Source: a virus
IMG/VR virus record: IMGVR_UViG_3300035216_000221
Span: 1 to 22,919 of that record
Direction: 5' to 3' (one strand)
Length of the DNA: 22,919 bases
The notes below the pieces were generated by a model, which was given only the letters and a program-made list of their open reading frames with translations, did not search any database and was not told where the DNA came from. Each line of letters begins with the position of its first letter. Position 1 is the stretch's first letter. The position numbers were made by a program, and so were the translations under genes. Shown here piece by piece: positions 2,271-9,973 of this stretch.

Positions 2271-3577
2271 CAGAATCCCTGCTTCTTACCAAATGAATCT
2301 CTTACAAGTGAGAGTGACGTGAAACTTTCTCTTGAGGTGAGATTATGACACACACTTGCTACCATATATATGCCACCAGTCTGCTTGTTTGTCTCTTTAT
2401 TCTTCTCACCCATCACTGCTGGAAAGTCACACATTACAATATCACCTGCCTTAATACTTATGTCTAGACCAATAGTAATGTTAACTTTAATAGAGAACAT
2501 TTGATTGTATCTCATAACAGGTTGAACCATTGCATTCTCTGCATCATAGTTAGGTTCTTGTGGAGCATCTTTCCAAGCATCTAATTGATCATCACCTGTT
2601 CCATTAGGATTAACTCCAATGTCAAACACATGTGTCATCAATCTAGTTGGTGCCTGTGTGAATTCCTTTGCCACCATATCAGCACCAAATGTTTTGCCTG
2701 ATATGCCCAGTTCATCAGGCACATACTTATATTCTTTTACAAAGTAATTCATAGCAAAGAAGTCAAAGTAGACAGACCTATTGTTGTAAGTTCCCAAGGT
2801 CATATTCTGTTTGAGTTCTACATCCTGGTCTATAGTATAGGATAGGATATTTGTATCATATCCCTCAGGAAGAATACCAGTATTGTTATAGATTAATTTT
2901 TTAACTGGTTCCTGTTCAAACAAAGAATCAATAGATCTAAAATTATATCCATTCCTCGTCTGATAGAATAGATATGCTGCCCTACTTCCAATATCCTTAT
3001 CAGGAATTGCCTTTGTTGCTAACCAAGTGCAAGTATAAAATGGTTTTCTATCATTACCAACAAAATTATATGTAGATGATGTGACGTCAATCTTCTCAAT
3101 CCTAGCGCCAATTGATTGTAAGATTTGACCAACATGCTCAGAGATTTTGCCCTCATATCTTGCCATAACTCTGATTTGCTCATTAGCAAAGTATTCTTTA
3201 GGAGCAAAGTCTAAGAAGTAAACATCCTTTGATGTGCCAGGAGATGCATTCCTTACTCTATTAACATACAATCCATTAACATCAAATCTAATTTTATTAT
3301 TCTTATTATCTTCAATAACAATATCAGTTCTCTCACCACCTCTGATAGGTAAACTGTCTAGTATTGACTTAGTGCCCTCAACTTTCTCACCATCTACCTC
3401 AAATCCAGTCTCAACAATGGTAGCAGTTGCAGTGATATTATTTGACAACACGCTCTCATAGTACCTAAAATCTACCACACCTCCACCAAAATCAACTGCT
3501 CTGTTGTTAGTGTTGGATGATATTTTAAACTTAGATATGTTAGCTGCACCTTCAGGTGCATTCTTTGGTTCTGCCAT
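2270..3577 (-). CDS. 27: Baseplate hub protein, gp27-like
   Basis: A 435-residue protein directly upstream of the gp5-like gene, the place of the hub ring gene in contractile tails. The N-terminal part reads like a hub beta-barrel (YYESVLSNNITATATIVETG, then IVIEDNKNNKIRFDVNGLYV). The C-terminal part has the layout of the second barrel of T4 gp27: KVNITIGLDISIKAGDIVMC, then GGIYMVASVCHNLTSRES and SFTSLSLVRDSFG, compared with T4 FNLTPGVKIIF...[22 protein letters not shown]. The expected role is a trimeric hub linking the tube to the gp5 spike. The length is close to T4 gp27 (391 residues). Overall identity to T4 looks low, so the call rests on position and these patterns. The start overlaps the preceding stop by one base (TAATG). 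Confidence 0.65.
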   Translation of the reverse strand: MAEPKNAPEGAANISKFKISSNTNNRAVDFGGGVVDFRYYESVLSNNITATATIVETGFEVDGEKVEGTKSILDSLPIRGGERTDIVIEDNKNNKIRFDVNGLYVNRVRNASPGTSKDVYFLDFAPKEYFANEQIRVMARYEGKISEHVGQILQSIGARIEKIDVTSSTYNFVGNDRKPFYTCTWLATKAIPDKDIGSRAAYLFYQTRNGYNFRSIDSLFEQEPVKKLIYNNTGILPEGYDTNILSYTIDQDVELKQNMTLGTYNNRSVYFDFFAMNYFVKEYKYVPDELGISGKTFGADMVAKEFTQAPTRLMTHVFDIGVNPNGTGDDQLDAWKDAPQEPNYDAENAMVQPVMRYNQMFSIKVNITIGLDISIKAGDIVMCDFPAVMGEKNKETNKQTGGIYMVASVCHNLTSRESFTSLSLVRDSFGKKQGF

Positions 3578-6114
3578 TATCCTTGCTTATATAAGTTAGC
3601 TAACAGTTGAGCTTTGTAGTAACTATTTACCATACTAATTGTAGAACCACCCACCATAGAAACACCAGACCTATTTGACATAACTGGAGTTTGTTGTTGA
3701 TTGGGAGATGGAAGAGGAACAACTACTTGAACATCTCCTTGGTCCTCATAAGATGCTGACCTTGCGACTGAAGGGGCTTGTTGTTGTGGTGCTGTAGTGA
3801 TCTTTGGTTGTGCAGGTGTTTGTCCTGAATAACCAGATGCCTCTGTTGCTGCCTTCTGTTCTGCCAGTTTCTGCTGCATCTGTGCTGGGGTGATACCACT
3901 TGTAGTTACAGGTTGTGTAACAGGAGTTACTGATGAAGGTGATGCTTGAGCACCAAAGTCAGGAACATTACCCTGAACATTACCACTATAATTCCAATCC
4001 CACCCAAAGTAATTGTTCTTTCCACCAGTTGATCTATAAATCTCACTCCTTCTATTTGTTTTGGTATAGTTTGTAAAGTCAGTCCTTCCAGCAACAAAAT
4101 CTCTTGCATTCTTTTGGAGAGTGGGGTTCATAATCTCTCTTGCAGCCTGCTCCACAAATGCAACAGATCGACCTGTAGCAGCTGCAGCTGTCTGTGCATC
4201 TACAATACCAAGCCACTCAGAGTTTGCCTTCTCGCCATTAGGATTCTTCCTTGGATAATCCCAAGTGGGTTGATACTGCCCATCAGCAATAATAAGTTCC
4301 CTTATATTTGAACTACTATAGGCACCAGATGCTGCTCTGTTATAGATTGACTGTGCTATGTCTGCTCTGGATTGGGCGTCACCATCTTCCAGTGAGGCAA
4401 CTGCTGTCAGTGTCCAGAAGTCTGCATTCCCACCAGTAACTGTACCAGTGGGTCCATCACCAGGGGCAGTAGGAGATGTAGCACCAGTGGCTTGTCCTGT
4501 AATTGAATCTGTTACACCATATGATATGACAGTGGGTGGTGATGTTCCATCTTGAGGTGGGAACAATGCATTCTTCATCAGACCAATGTTTTCCTTTATG
4601 TTTCCGAAGAGGAACCCTGGATCAGGAACTGCACCAATTCCAAAATTCATCTTTGGCAGACTAGCATAGTATCTGGTCCATGAGTCCTTCATATATTGCG
4701 CAAAGTTAGCTCCTGATTGAAGAGTATTCTTCCAGTCCTGAGCCATTTTAGATTGTACTCCTGCTATTCCACCACCTTCTAAGAAACTATAGAGCAAGTC
4801 ACCACCATACTCACCAATCAAACCACCAAGAATAGTTCCAACAACTGGAATGGGGATGAGTGTGCCAAGTGCTTCGCCAAGTCCAGTACCAACTGACTTG
4901 AACAATGTTTGCTTGACTGGATCGCCAGAAAGCATTGATCCAATTGCAGCAATAAAAGGACCTATAATAGGAATTCTAAATCCCTTTACGCCTTTGAATA
5001 TATTTTTAAATAATCCTTTATTTTGTGCTATAGCTTTTGCTTCTTTCTTACCAAAAAGTTTCTGCAAAAACTTATTTGGTTTGCCTGGTAATTTAGTAGC
5101 TTGCCCACTTGGTTTTGATACATTACCTTTAAATCTTCTCTTTGCTGCTTCATCTCCATATCTTTGAGCATATCTTTTCCTTGCTACCTTAGATGATGTA
5201 GCAGTCCTTTGTTTCTGATTTAATCTTATTCCAGGTGTTGTTGAGTTTCTACCACCTCTTCTACCAGGTTTGCCAGGAAGAGGAGGTTTGCCTGCTCTTA
5301 ATCTGATAGCATTGATGGCACCTCTAGCAAAATCTACAATGGCATCACCAAGTCTAGTAAATCCAAACTTAAATAAACTACCAAGACCTCTTGCTGTTTT
5401 AAGAATCAGTTTGCCTGTGGTTTTGATTGCTGTTTTAAACAGTCTGGCACCTAAACCAAGTGTCCCCTTTAAGAATCCCTTGAGACCAACTAACCCAAGT
5501 CTTAAACCACTAAAAATTAGATAAAGATTAGAACTATATTTGTTAAGGAACCCTCCAATCTGTTCAAGATTGTTAAAAGTAAGAAGAGCAAGTCCACCCA
5601 ACAAAGTGTTGAGCAAGAACTTACCAATCATATCCATAAAATTAAAGCTTGATGCCTTACCTAAGGCACTGCCAAGGAGATTGCCACCACCTTTTTTCTC
5701 TAAATTCTTCTCTCTTTTTGCTGCCTTGTCTTTTGATAGTGCAGATTTCTTCTTCCTTGAATTAGCAAGTTCTTCCTTATACTCTTTCTTTAAAACTTCA
5801 TCAAGTTTAGATGTGTTCTGAATAAGATTATCTAATTGAGTTTTAAGTGACTCTTGGTTGGATTCAGTTTCTACTTTTACTTGCTGACTCTCTGATTTAA
5901 AATCAGAAGCAGAAATCTTTTTCTGTGACGCTACCTTTGAGTACATTGCCTCACTGGTGCCAACAAAACTTGCCTTATTTTCTACCCTAGGTTGATTATC
6001 TCTTGCTTGTTTAATCTTTGCATCCTTAGTTTTAACAAGCGCACCATCAGTCTTCTTGGATTTACCTCCAAGAAGTCCTTTCATCATAGCACCAGCAATC
6101 ATAGGTAATGCCAT
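3577..6114 (-). CDS. Tape-measure-like tail protein with SleB-type cell wall hydrolase domain
   Basis: 845 residues. The N-terminal ~150 residues are charged and probably coiled-coil (KKKSALSKDKAAKREKNLEKK). A hydrophobic stretch follows (~155-190, MIGKFLLNTLLGGLAL at 162), then a basic Gly/Lys/Arg-rich region (~200-370) and two more apolar segments (~377-395 and ~404-436). At about 565-690 is a domain like SleB/Hydrolase_2 cell wall hydrolases: TAVASLEDGD with candidate catalytic Glu576, the helix ADIAQSIYNRAAS (586-596) and GQYQPTW (612-618). The C-terminus is Gln/Pro/Thr-rich and low-complexity. The coiled-coil plus the NTLLGGL segment also occurs in the neighbouring upstream gene, so the two look like tandem paralogues. 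A role as tape measure or hub component that digests peptidoglycan on injection is inferred from domains and position between chaperone and hub genes. Confidence 0.6.
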   Translation of the reverse strand: MALPMIAGAMMKGLLGGKSKKTDGALVKTKDAKIKQARDNQPRVENKASFVGTSEAMYSKVASQKKISASDFKSESQQVKVETESNQESLKTQLDNLIQNTSKLDEVLKKEYKEELANSRKKKSALSKDKAAKREKNLEKKGGGNLLGSALGKASSFNFMDMIGKFLLNTLLGGLALLTFNNLEQIGGFLNKYSSNLYLIFSGLRLGLVGLKGFLKGTLGLGARLFKTAIKTTGKLILKTARGLGSLFKFGFTRLGDAIVDFARGAINAIRLRAGKPPLPGKPGRRGGRNSTTPGIRLNQKQRTATSSKVARKRYAQRYGDEAAKRRFKGNVSKPSGQATKLPGKPNKFLQKLFGKKEAKAIAQNKGLFKNIFKGVKGFRIPIIGPFIAAIGSMLSGDPVKQTLFKSVGTGLGEALGTLIPIPVVGTILGGLIGEYGGDLLYSFLEGGGIAGVQSKMAQDWKNTLQSGANFAQYMKDSWTRYYASLPKMNFGIGAVPDPGFLFGNIKENIGLMKNALFPPQDGTSPPTVISYGVTDSITGQATGATSPTAPGDGPTGTVTGGNADFWTLTAVASLEDGDAQSRADIAQSIYNRAASGAYSSSNIRELIIADGQYQPTWDYPRKNPNGEKANSEWLGIVDAQTAAAATGRSVAFVEQAAREIMNPTLQKNARDFVAGRTDFTNYTKTNRRSEIYRSTGGKNNYFGWDWNYSGNVQGNVPDFGAQASPSSVTPVTQPVTTSGITPAQMQQKLAEQKAATEASGYSGQTPAQPKITTAPQQQAPSVARSASYEDQGDVQVVVPLPSPNQQQTPVMSNRSGVSMVGGSTISMVNSYYKAQLLANLYKQG

Positions 6115-6117
6115 GTC

Positions 6118-8577
6118 TTATCCTACTATGTTGTAGATAGATTTAACAACCAGTGACTCAAGATTATTTGGGTCTTCTGGATTGATAGATGGAACTTGTT
6201 TTTGAAGTCCCCCAGAACTACTTGACTCTCCCTGAGATGATTGCCCATTAGCTGAAACATATAATGGTTGAATGGTTGGAGGTTTTGGTGCTCCAGGTGG
6301 AAGGGGAAGTGTCTTTTGCCTACTTATTTGTGGAGATTGTATAGCAGGAGCAGATTGAGATGAAGTAGGATGAGCTCTTGGAGCACCAGATAAACCAGAT
6401 GCCATTGAATTCAATACCCTTCTTGCCAATGCTTTTGAATGTTCCCCCTTAGTCTTATTCTTAACCTCACCTAAGAATGGTGCAATGGCAGGACTGTCAA
6501 TCCTATCAACTTCAAGGATAGTACCACCTGCTGCTGTCACACCATAATCTTTATGACTGACAGGATACTTGCCAAAGACACCAGCCATTGATCTATCAAC
6601 TGCTGATACATTGTTTGATGATGGGAAGATGACACCAGGTCTACCATTCTTTCTAGCATCAAAGTGTATGTCAACAAATTGTGTGCCACCATTCTTCTCA
6701 ACATCTCTTGGCACACCAGACAATCCACCATAAGAGTAGATGTTCTGGAATGAAATTCTTTGTCTTAGATTTTGATCAGCACTAACAATCTGCTGCATTG
6801 TTTTGACAAGATGTCTGGTTGCTTCCCATTCATTAACACCTGTCCCATAGTCTTGTGTGCCTTGTACTGACCTACCATCAGACCCTAAGGGAATACCTTT
6901 AAGTGCATTCTCTTCTGTTGGAGCATGACCAGCACTGATAACAAGATTACTTACAGCACCACCATCTTTCATGGTCTGGATATCCTCAGAAAGACCAAGT
7001 CCCATACCTGGCATCTGTATTGACCCATACTTAGCAGTATTATTACCACCAACAGCAGCAAGCAGCCGATCAGTACCAATTTCCTCAACAAAGTTGCGCG
7101 GGAGCATGAATTCACCAGGTTCAGCAACAACTAGTTGGGTGTCAACACCAAATCCTTTTATCTTATTAGATGAAGTACTCTCAATCTTACCACCCTCTCT
7201 GATATCAATAGGAACTGGTGCTGCCATAGGTGATTCACCCATAACTTCACCACCACCAGTCTGCTGCTGAACTTGCTGCTGTGCATTAGTGGGTTCTAGT
7301 TTTAAAATTCCTGGAATTGGAATTTGAATCTGTGGTGCTTCTAAAGCAGGCAATCTAGGACCAGGGTCCATGGGTGCTTGCTTAAAGAATGCAAGGGCAT
7401 CATTAATTGCATTTTCAATATTCTGAAGACCAGCATTCAATCCAGTAGCAATACTGTTGTACATATTATAAGGTATATCTACAACAAACTGTACAGTGCT
7501 TTCAATCCACTTAATTATATCAATAAAGAATTGTTTGATTGGATTGAGATACTTGTGAGGATCATTGATGATATCCATCACTCTCAATATCAATCCACCC
7601 AATAGTGTATTGATAATAAATTTCTCAATCATCCCAAACAAATCACTAACTGGTTTGGCAATCCTGTTTAAGGCACCAGACATAAATCCACTTTTACTTT
7701 TACCACCCTCTAACTTTGCTTCCCTTTTTGAAGCCTTGTCTTTATTGGCAAGTCTTTCATCTCTATCAGACTCTTTCTTCTCAAGATCATATTGTTTCCT
7801 GAGTGTGTCAAGAATACTTTGAATGTTCTCATCAATTTTTTGAAGAGAAGGTGCAAGAACTTTCTGATTAAAACCATCCTTCTCTTCAACCTGTGCTTCT
7901 TGCTCCTCCTCAACTGTTTTACTAATCTTCTGTGCTGATGGCAACAAACCAGCAGGAGTTACAACAGGTTTGTCAGTCTCTACATCTGCTGCTTCACCTC
8001 TATCAAAGAAACTATCTGCACTGACAGTCTTCTTGTTTACCTTAAATCTACCAGTCTTACTCTTTACTCTCTTGTATTCATCAGTAAGAAGTTCTACTTC
8101 CTCAGTAGGCATCTGACTGTCAGTCATCCTGCCAGCCATCATCTTCTCTTTCAGAAGAGTTTTATATGTATCATAGTCAATATCAACTACATCTTCAAGA
8201 CCAAGTAGTCTGAGGATGACGTCATCTACATCCTCACCTACCAAGTCCTCTTCACTTGCTGCATCTGTTGTTTGAGGAATTACTGCAAGAGCAGTTGAAC
8301 CACCACCCTCCTCCTCTATAACATTCTCAGTTAAATCTTTTAGTCCCTGATTATATTCTACTTCATCATAGTGTCCTGAAAGTCCTAGGCATACATCAAT
8401 GAAGTCATTGTCTTCACCAGTAATAATTTTAAGATCTATATCCTGCTGCTCATCCTCTGACAAATTCTCGTAGTAAAACCCTAACTTTTTGAGACGATCT
8501 TCTGTAAGTTTGGAAAGCAAATCCTTTCCAGTCTCGTTCTCATAAATTTTTAGTAGTTTTACTACCTTACTATCCAT
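6118..8577 (-). CDS. Tape-measure-like tail protein with amidase-type domain
   Basis: 819 residues, the first large gene after the tail assembly chaperone, where the tape measure normally lies. The N-terminal ~290 residues are acidic, then a charged coiled-coil (ANKDKASKREAKLEGG) leads into a hydrophobic segment MIEKFIINTLLGGLILRV from residue 316, matching the next gene's NTLLGGL region. At about 540-710 a domain resembles zinc-dependent N-acetylmuramoyl-L-alanine amidases (Amidase_3): VISAGHAP with His551, NEWEATRHLV with Glu583/Glu585, VDIHFDA with His638, and ILEVDRIDSP with Glu689, in the order of metal ligands and catalytic Glu. The C-terminal ~100 residues are Pro/Ser/Gln-rich. The role as tape measure and/or murein-degrading tail protein is inferred. 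T4 gp29 is the positional counterpart, but I see no convincing sequence match to it. Confidence 0.6.
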   Translation of the reverse strand: MDSKVVKLLKIYENETGKDLLSKLTEDRLKKLGFYYENLSEDEQQDIDLKIITGEDNDFIDVCLGLSGHYDEVEYNQGLKDLTENVIEEEGGGSTALAVIPQTTDAASEEDLVGEDVDDVILRLLGLEDVVDIDYDTYKTLLKEKMMAGRMTDSQMPTEEVELLTDEYKRVKSKTGRFKVNKKTVSADSFFDRGEAADVETDKPVVTPAGLLPSAQKISKTVEEEQEAQVEEKDGFNQKVLAPSLQKIDENIQSILDTLRKQYDLEKKESDRDERLANKDKASKREAKLEGGKSKSGFMSGALNRIAKPVSDLFGMIEKFIINTLLGGLILRVMDIINDPHKYLNPIKQFFIDIIKWIESTVQFVVDIPYNMYNSIATGLNAGLQNIENAINDALAFFKQAPMDPGPRLPALEAPQIQIPIPGILKLEPTNAQQQVQQQTGGGEVMGESPMAAPVPIDIREGGKIESTSSNKIKGFGVDTQLVVAEPGEFMLPRNFVEEIGTDRLLAAVGGNNTAKYGSIQMPGMGLGLSEDIQTMKDGGAVSNLVISAGHAPTEENALKGIPLGSDGRSVQGTQDYGTGVNEWEATRHLVKTMQQIVSADQNLRQRISFQNIYSYGGLSGVPRDVEKNGGTQFVDIHFDARKNGRPGVIFPSSNNVSAVDRSMAGVFGKYPVSHKDYGVTAAGGTILEVDRIDSPAIAPFLGEVKNKTKGEHSKALARRVLNSMASGLSGAPRAHPTSSQSAPAIQSPQISRQKTLPLPPGAPKPPTIQPLYVSANGQSSQGESSSSGGLQKQVPSINPEDPNNLESLVVKSIYNIVG

Positions 8578-8740
8578 TCTGACGTGCCTTTGCTTTTTGT
8601 TCTTCTTCTTCTAGGTGTTGTTGTAGAAGTCCAACATAAACATCACGCTCCCACGGCATCATGTTTTCAATCTCAGTTAATGAATATTTATGGTACTGCA
8701 TCAAGGCAAAATTTAACCTGTAATAACTTTCAAGGTCCAT
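8570..8740 (-). CDS. Small -1-frame ORF downstream of gp26; likely the frameshift extension of the tail assembly chaperone
   Basis: 56 codons from the ATG at 8738-8740 to TAG at 8570-8572, overlapping the next gene start by 8 bases. The protein begins MDLESYYRLNFALMQYHKYS and continues LTEIENMMPWERDVYVGLLQ, ending in a Glu/Lys-rich tail. The pattern of a short helical region followed by a three-part 'start a helix, MPWER, YVGLL' motif is what the T part of lambda-type GT tail chaperones looks like. The frame is open upstream of its ATG and continues in phase into the -1 frame of gp26 at the slippery site 8758-8764 (intervening residues RIGLSH). It may therefore be made mainly as a gp26 fusion of about 300 residues. 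No good Shine-Dalgarno precedes the ATG. T4 gp51 occupies this position, but I do not claim homology. Confidence 0.75.
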   Translation of the reverse strand: MDLESYYRLNFALMQYHKYSLTEIENMMPWERDVYVGLLQQHLEEEEQKAKARQNG

Positions 8741-8751
8741 ATGGGAAAGAC

Positions 8752-9471
8752 CTATCCGAAAAAACTTGATAACCCTTCTAGTACAACAATGCTAGCCACA
8801 TCAGTGACTGGATTCACCACTTCCAAAGTATGTGAAAGTTTAGGCATAGTCTCAAAGAACTTTTCAACATCCTTAAATTGAGTAGAACTCATTTGATTAA
8901 GGAACTCAACCACTTCTTTCTTTGTACAGTCAGCAGTAGACCAAACTTCATCTTCATTATAGATTTTATCAATACAAGATGCAATCAACTCAAATGACTT
9001 GTCAACATTGCTTGTATCAACCTGATCAAAGTTATTCTTAATGAACTGATCAAGAGATGGATACTTCATCTCCATCATCAATGAATCATCAAGTCTAATT
9101 TGTTTAGTGTGGTTTTCATCCTCAACAACTTTAATATCATCAAGATTAATGCTGACAGGGATGGGTGTTGTACCATCATCTGGAGCAATAATACTAATCT
9201 CCACCTCTTCACCAACAGACTTGCCTCTAATATTCAGGAACAAAAATTCAATATCAAAGGTAGGAAGATCTTCAACCTTCACTCCTCTTGTAGGGATACA
9301 AGACTTGATTACTGTCTTGATAGCATTAGTAATTTGCTTAGTATCTTCACTCTCCAATGCAAGAACAAGTAACTTCTCTTCCTTAACTAAGAAAGGTCTA
9401 AACTTAATCTTTTGTTTTGTTGATGGCAACTCCAAGTCATATGTTGGTGTGGCAATTTTTGGTAAAGGCAT
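8752..9471 (-). CDS. 26: Baseplate hub subunit gp26 / tail assembly chaperone (T4_baseplate family)
   Basis: 239 residues. The opening MPLPKIATPTYDLELPSTKQ, then IKFRPFLVKEEKLLVLAL, then LPTFDIEFLFLNIRGKSVG are hallmarks of the T4 gp26 family (Pfam T4_baseplate). Members precede the tape measure gene and probably act as chaperones for it, as G/GT proteins do in lambda. It lies between gp4 and the first tape-measure-like gene. The C-terminus SSFFG overlaps a U UUU UUC heptamer two codons before the TAG stop, so a minor frameshifted product of about 300 residues is predicted. A late-promoter-like AATAAATA lies about 20 bases upstream of the ATG. No strong Shine-Dalgarno is seen. Confidence 0.85.
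   Translation of the reverse strand: MPLPKIATPTYDLELPSTKQKIKFRPFLVKEEKLLVLALESEDTKQITNAIKTVIKSCIPTRGVKVEDLPTFDIEFLFLNIRGKSVGEEVEISIIAPDDGTTPIPVSINLDDIKVVEDENHTKQIRLDDSLMMEMKYPSLDQFIKNNFDQVDTSNVDKSFELIASCIDKIYNEDEVWSTADCTKKEVVEFLNQMSSTQFKDVEKFFETMPKLSHTLEVVNPVTDVASIVVLEGLSSFFG
8758..8764 (-). promoter_or_regulatory. Candidate -1 programmed ribosomal frameshift site (T TTT TTC)
   Basis: On the minus strand gp26 ends AGT TTT TTC GGA TAG. The heptamer T TTT TTC is in the exact X XXY YYZ register for tandem -1 slippage. After slippage, reading goes CGG ATA GGT CTT TCC CAT ATG into the small ORF at 8570-8740 without a stop. Two possible short downstream hairpins are visible (AGGTC with GACCT, or CTTTC with GAAAG around CCATATGG), 4 to 8 bases after the heptamer. 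Frameshifting itself is inferred. Confidence 0.7.
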
Positions 9472-9490: not shown

Positions 9491-9498
9491 TATTTATT
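9491..9498 (-). promoter_or_regulatory. T4-type late promoter candidate upstream of gp26
   Basis: The minus strand reads AATAAATA, one mismatch from the T4 late core TATAAATA, about 20 bases before the gp26 ATG. It overlaps the last codons of gp4. Start of transcription would be near 9484, giving a leader of about 13 bases. Confidence 0.45.
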
Positions 9499-9973
9499 TG
9501 CGTTTTTTAGACTTTTTTGGGGGTGCAATTCCTAAATCATTTTCAGTCAAGACCTTGAACTCAATACCATTATCTTTGGCAAAGGCATCAGCAGCTCTCC
9601 ACTTTGCCTGATTCACAGCATATGTTTTTGCTTCAGTAATGAATGTCTTGGTCATCCTAGCAGGTTTCTTTGGTTCAGAGCACTGTCTAGCAGGTTTGAT
9701 CTCAATAATATATCTCTTGATCTCACCATTCTTGTGCCTGATTTGCACAATACCATCAGGATAATACCTGTGGGTTCTGTTGTCAACAGGACTTACATAT
9801 GGAATGCTGAACTCTTCTGCTGCATACTTCAACACAGCATCATTTCTGTCACACCATCTTAGAAAGTGAAGTTCCCAACTACTTCTATACACAATGTTAG
9901 AAGTATCTCCCATATACTTCTCTGGGAATTGTGGGTGAAACCTACCTTGGTGCCACTTGTTTCCCTTTGGCAT
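9494..9973 (-). CDS. 4: Head completion protein gp4 (PD-(D/E)XK nuclease fold)
   Basis: 159 residues, close to T4 gp4 (about 150). It aligns by eye along its length: PEKYMGDTSNIVYRSSWELH with T4 PHKYVGDHTNIIYRSSWERA, FLRWCD with FMRWCD, and RYYPDGIV...RYIIEIKPA with RYFPDFFV...KYLIEVKPF. Pro72-Asp73 and Glu91-Ile-Lys93 give the PD...(E)xK active-site pattern. In T4 gp4 is needed to complete filled heads before tail joining. The end is a very basic KKSKKRK. It is the first gene of the leftward late operon and diverges from the gp54-like gene across a 37-bp gap (9974-10010). That gap holds only TATAC/TATTTA-like hexamers, none of which is a convincing promoter. Confidence 0.88.
   Translation of the reverse strand: MPKGNKWHQGRFHPQFPEKYMGDTSNIVYRSSWELHFLRWCDRNDAVLKYAAEEFSIPYVSPVDNRTHRYYPDGIVQIRHKNGEIKRYIIEIKPARQCSEPKKPARMTKTFITEAKTYAVNQAKWRAADAFAKDNGIEFKVLTENDLGIAPPKKSKKRK

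Follow-up and report, generated by a model that had tools for sequence, protein, structure and literature searches.

This locus raises the question of whether gp26 and the small open reading frame (ORF) that follows it are two genes or one gene joined by a programmed -1 frameshift. A reading made from the sequence alone had proposed the frameshift and had likened the pair to the lambda G/GT tail chaperones. The window is the whole stretch of viral DNA that was analyzed (22,919 nucleotides; IMG/VR record IMGVR_UViG_3300035216_000221).

The gp26 junction

The features of the region are given below in window coordinates.

9471..8752, minus strand: gp26 ORF, 239 aa, PF12322 and phrog_150; proposed short tail assembly chaperone (TAC-N), the equivalent of lambda gpG.
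8773..8778, minus strand: Shine-Dalgarno (SD)-like GAAGGG, a possible stimulator, 8 nt upstream of the heptamer; of the GAGGGA type in relatives.
8764-8758, minus strand: slippery heptamer T TTT TTC in X XXY YYZ register, with UUU in the P site and UUC in the A site.
8570..8764, minus strand: stretch read in the -1 frame after a slip, up to the stop codon; would form the C-terminal extension in the proposed long chaperone (TAC-NC, the equivalent of lambda gpGT; fusion of 300 aa).
8741..8757, minus strand: linker RIGLSH, read in the -1 frame only.
8754-8752, minus strand: 0-frame stop TAG of gp26, separated from the heptamer by a single codon (GGA).
8733..8753, minus strand: weak stem-loop predicted with ViennaRNA, 6 bp with a 9-nt loop, 4 nt past the heptamer and covering the small-ORF AUG.
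8740..8570, minus strand: small ORF, 56 aa, in the -1 frame relative to gp26; annotated elsewhere as "gp51."
6118..8577, minus strand: next gene, 819 aa; proposed tape measure protein and chaperone client, from weak profile matches and the P-TIM68 counterpart.

The 3' end of gp26 reads GTA CTA GAA GGG TTA TCA AGT TTT TTC GGA TAG on the minus strand of the window. The sequence-only reading had placed T TTT TTC in register in the last five codons, and the sequence, coordinates, and frame were as it claimed. After a slip, the -1 frame reads CGG ATA GGT CTT TCC CAT ATG GAC CTT GAA ... and is open to the small-ORF stop at 8570. The -1 peptide from the slip is FFRIGLSHMDLESYY...QNG, with 64 residues, for a predicted fusion of 236 + 64 = 300 residues. 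The stop-free passage into a 56-codon ORF and the product sizes of 239 and about 300 residues given earlier were reproduced (239 and 300).

The ORFs of the window were scanned for in-register heptamers in which X was any base and Y was A or T. The 27 ORFs examined contained 26 X XXY YYZ sites. Only the gp26 site was followed by a long -1 frame, which ran for 64 codons; the next best of the 26 sites had 21.

The small ORF is present in the -1 frame as described, but it is not new. It belongs to the family annotated as gp51 or "baseplate hub assembly catalyst" (phrog_634; E = 4.6e-28), which it matches over profile positions 63 to 117 of 121 only. A second match is to the C terminus of phrog_150 (E = 4.5e-5).

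Two other ORFs flank the region. The ORF upstream of gp26 (window 9494-9973) matches a TnsA-like endonuclease (PF08722) and the phrog "head closure" (gp4-type) family. The downstream ORF (window 3577-6114) encodes 845 aa and partially matches an "endolysin" family (phrog_12490; E = 1.6e-9). Neighboring counterparts in RN05-S are annotated as endolysin or peptidase M23. The 845-aa protein is possibly a tail-associated hydrolase.

Conservation of the junction and status of the small ORF

A search with the window gp26 protein retrieved 80 metagenomic viral loci, and the gp26 stop was readable in 79. T TTT TTC was in register in all 79 of these close relatives. Five further scans with gp26 of S-PM2, pf16, S-H34, PVA23, and Vibrio YC, together with annotated phage regions, brought the set to 288 readable junctions. 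These came from metagenomes and phage genomes, and the identity of the 0-frame proteins fell as low as about 20%. A heptamer in the correct register was present at 284/288 junctions as TTTTTTC, TTTTTTT, or, once, TTTAAAC. The relatives that carry it include Straboviridae CC2 and PVA23, Menderavirus, pf16, and rhizobial phages. The four junctions without it were from Vibrio YC (two records), D495, and phiA8-29. All 275 complete junctions had a stop-free -1 frame of 120 nt or more.

In Rhizobium phage RHph_I1_18 (locus L088, about 2160-2235), U UUA AAC replaces U UUU UUC at the equivalent place. Several more 0-frame codons follow the slip site in this phage before the stop is reached.

Dereplication at 90% gp26 identity left 121 junctions. 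The heptamer and the stop were exactly one codon apart in 100 of them. The codon preceding TTT ended in T in 121/121 junctions (T ends about 58% of such codons across gp26), and FF was encoded by TTT TTC in 109/121, both counts being inflated by kinship among the junctions. The remaining FF positions had TTT TTT or the TTTAAAC site. The conserved internal FF of gp26 was encoded by TTC TTT in 58/105 cases and by TTT TTC in only 6/105. The codon preceding TTT was AGT (41), GAT (29), TCT (28), AAT (19), or one of GCT, ACT, and TTT (4 together), and the residue before FF varied among S, D, N, A, F, and T. A T that stays fixed despite changes between unrelated codons would be hard to account for except as conservation of a slip site.

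Seven Ackermannviridae-type junctions (Vi01, Kevin, Menlow, VAP7, YC, phiA8-29, and D495) keep the -1 tail and have no canonical heptamer. They contain a short run of 3 to 5 T before the stop, for example, ATT TTC ATT TAA. This run suggests that a single Phe tRNA could slip from UUC to UUU. The -1 tail is unannotated in Vi01 and Menlow.

Within -1 codons 1 to 16, 38/121 dereplicated relatives had no ATG, GTG, or TTG, and 16 more had GTG or TTG only. Tails that lack a start include that of CC2 (FFRITLVNHTIYDHF...) and many of the FFRISLFHNSLENYY... types. In the window's clade, the residues preceding the small-ORF ATG are kept as protein. Over -1 codons 4 to 7, which run from the gp26 stop to this ATG, dN/dS was 0.30 in the -1 frame versus 2.03 and 1.27 in the other frames. 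It was 0.17 for the tail in the -1 frame. Because starts are missing in about a third of the relatives and the linker before the ATG is selected as protein, ribosomes must come from upstream. On these grounds of sequence, the small ORF is a C-terminal extension of gp26 and not an independent gene "gp51."

An alignment of the junction in relatives, with a search for members without a small-ORF start, had been suggested as a check on the frameshift. Both came out in its favor. Codon bias falls far short of explaining how well the heptamer is kept, the -1 relation holds throughout, and about one-third of the dereplicated relatives lack any ATG, GTG, or TTG. Loss of the site with retention of the small-ORF start had been named in advance as the pattern that would count against the frameshift, and the reverse was observed.

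In the window's clade, a free 56-aa tail may be made from the ATG at -1 codon 8 (and from codon 5 in some relatives) in addition to the frameshifted long chaperone. The ATG is near-constant in the close clade, at a fixed distance after the gp26 stop, and lies in or beside the predicted stem-loop. Elsewhere its position holds just a hydrophobic or variable residue (M, N, E, I, or T), and there is no clear Shine-Dalgarno sequence ahead of it. We consider a second, free product unlikely.

Reading the small ORF as part of gp26 would set right an error that is widespread in the annotation of cyanophages and their relatives, in whose genomes "gp51" is the gp26 extension and several records omit or truncate the tail. 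The tail is mis-annotated through the frameshift in RN05-S, which has a 30-aa stub only (L300:4312-4401), and in S-PRM1 and CC2, which have none.

gp26 as a predicted tail assembly chaperone

gp26 matches Pfam T4_baseplate (PF12322) with an E value of 6.3e-72 and 242.3 bits (curated cutoff, 24.5). It also matches phrog_150 (E = 1.6e-77). The AlphaFold2 model of gp26 had a pLDDT of 86.7. Its best fold neighbor in the PDB was 2ob9, the HK97 tail assembly chaperone (84 residues; rmsd, 4.1), with a Z of 7.8, which is moderate and within reach of common arrangements. It was followed by 3fgx (Z 7.7) and 3klu (Z 7.2), which we take to be prophage tail chaperone-type proteins likewise; the next neighbor had a Z of 5.3. 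Foldseek alone gave an E value of 1.4 for the model against 2ob9, which is not significant. A PDB sequence search with the gp26 profile found nothing relevant.

The 819-aa product of the next gene is probably the tail tape measure protein. It had been called tape-measure-like from sequence alone. The window's own protein matches weakly (phrog_35029, E = 1.1e-12; tape-measure phrog_4200, E = 0.029), and the counterpart in P-TIM68 matches phrog_35029 (E = 4.6e-29) and the tape-measure family phrog_4197 (E = 2.7e-7). This counterpart and the fold, with HK97 gp13 as the top PDB match, support the analogy to lambda G/GT.

The junction has an open -1 ORF, a heptamer in register, an adjoining tape-measure-like gene, and a chaperone-like N-terminal fold, as in the G/GT class. 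We predict with high confidence that gp26 is a G/GT-type tail assembly chaperone with a long form made by programmed -1 frameshifting. Database names instead make gp26 a structural baseplate hub subunit, in which case the fusion would be a minor hub variant and not a chaperone. The chaperone fold of the model, the position of the gene before a tape-measure-like gene, and a short/long pair like that of known tail chaperones argue against this. T4 gp26 and gp51 have also been proposed as chaperones or cofactors (PMC9024508). A structural role of this kind is very improbable.

Under the chaperone reading, most ribosomes would halt at TAG and yield the 239-aa short form. We infer that a minority would shift one base backward at U UUU UUC, where both Phe tRNAs could re-pair with UUU, and would yield a 300-aa product that ends in the "gp51" tail. 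Short forms in large numbers would, by analogy to the lambda gpG/gpGT pair, coat the tape measure protein encoded by the neighboring gene, and a few long forms would recruit tail tube subunits through the tail. Both forms would be expected, again by analogy, to be absent from the finished virion.

Slippage may be aided from both sides of the heptamer. Among relatives, the Glu codon of the SD-like element was GAG in 56/86 cases versus 902/2,877 (31%) elsewhere in gp26, and its Gly codon was GGA in 57/119 versus 197/737. These codon choices are suggestive only of a Shine-Dalgarno-like stimulator (GAAGGG or GAGGGA). The folding energy downstream of the heptamer was below that of shuffled sequences, with median z values of -3.3 for S-PM2 relatives, -3.5 for S-H34 relatives, and -1.2 for the window clade. 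The hairpin differs in form between clades. By prediction, a downstream stem-loop is a possible stimulator. S-PM2 (locus L082, about 2220-2255) has a strong AT-rich hairpin, TTCTATAATAAT...ATTATTATAGAA, about 11 nt past the heptamer. A hairpin whose loop holds the AUG (GGTCC-ACAT-GGACC or GATCC-ATAT-GGATC) is striking in some close relatives. It was rejected as a conserved stimulator; the window and other relatives in that clade break it.

Two further explanations concern the joining of the frames. In one, the small ORF would be translated by itself as gp51, from its own ATG and by coupling to the gp26 stop, with the T run being incidental. Many cyanophage records annotate it in this way, and the distance from stop to ATG is fixed in the window's clade. 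The 38/121 relatives with no start, the protein-level selection on the linker in the -1 frame, and a heptamer fixed against codon preference leave this explanation with scarcely any credibility. Transcriptional rather than ribosomal slippage on the homopolymer of six T is extremely improbable: six T is short for polymerase slippage, the codon register and the fixed preceding T suit tRNA re-pairing, the Ackermannviridae-type junctions keep the arrangement with 3 to 5 T only, and RHph_I1_18 has TTTAAAC.

Relation to known chaperone systems

The lambda tape measure protein is bound by gpG and by gpGT, the frameshifted form, whose T part brings in tube subunits (Atkins et al. 2016, PMC5009743). 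The same review gives G-T frameshifting as widely conserved in long-tailed phages "except T4." Some T4-like phages have one short gene and one fused long gene in place of frameshifting (PMC10885494). In T4-like phages, tail assembly chaperones were identified by Vladimirov, Gautam and Davidson in 2022 (Virology 566:9), according to the title of that paper and to PMC10885494 and PMC12846349. The latter credits the same paper with poly-T slippery sequences in the TAC-N genes of T4-like phages.

The sequence-only reading knew of no description of a frameshift for T4-like gp26. A literature search for a cyanophage account found none among the papers covered, and one may still exist; for T4-like phages more broadly, tail chaperones were described in 2022 (PMC10885494, PMC12846349). 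Because these chaperones and their poly-T slippery sites are already credited to Vladimirov et al. 2022, the cyanophage gp26 frameshift is less novel than first thought and is possibly contained in that work. With it, the abundant marine T4-like phages would join the standard rule for long-tailed phages, in which a frameshift sets the chaperone ratio.

T4 gp51 matches PF12322 over residues 1-201 (E = 3.9e-52, 177.5 bits) and phrog_634 over residues 147-246 (profile 2-103). T4 gp26 matches PF12322 only (215.6 bits). Profiles from the cyanophage tails and gp26 proteins single out gp51 and gp26 among the T4 ORFs. From these matches, T4 gp51 is an in-frame version that consists of a gp26 domain and a homologue of the -1 tail, and it belongs to the same family as T4 gp26. 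T4 gp26 was rejected as a frameshift site, with no heptamer at its 3' end. T4 thus resembles the window phage in having PF12322 in gp26 and gp51 and a gp51 C terminus homologous to the cyanophage -1 tail. It differs in encoding the short form and the long form by separate genes, which lie on opposite strands, whereas the window phage has one gene with a proposed frameshift.

Frameshifting may be the ancestral route to the chaperone pair across T4-like phages and Ackermannviridae. Ackermannviridae would then use a looser slip by a single tRNA (U UUC to U UUU), and the T4 subfamily would have lost the frameshift through gene duplication and fusion of one copy to the tail. We put this scenario forward tentatively, with somewhat more doubt than belief. 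If it is true, the T4 ratio is set by the expression of two genes and not by slippage. T4, with its two genes, shows how a frameshift could be dispensed with and offers a natural experiment on the importance of the ratio.

The closest known tail assembly chaperone systems are lambda gpG/gpGT, P2 E/E+E', and HK97 gp13/14. The lambda slippery site is G GGA AAG. The window phage differs from lambda in its heptamer (U UUU UUC), in its larger N part (239 aa, PF12322), and in being a T4-superfamily phage, and its frameshift is predicted. The chaperones of Vandenendeviridae and Andersonviridae (phage Adele, PMC12846349) are similar in that the -1 frame is universally open, a T-rich motif is invariant, and the tail is unannotated. 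They differ in their motif, GTTTTT, and in the phage families to which they belong (PMC12846349).
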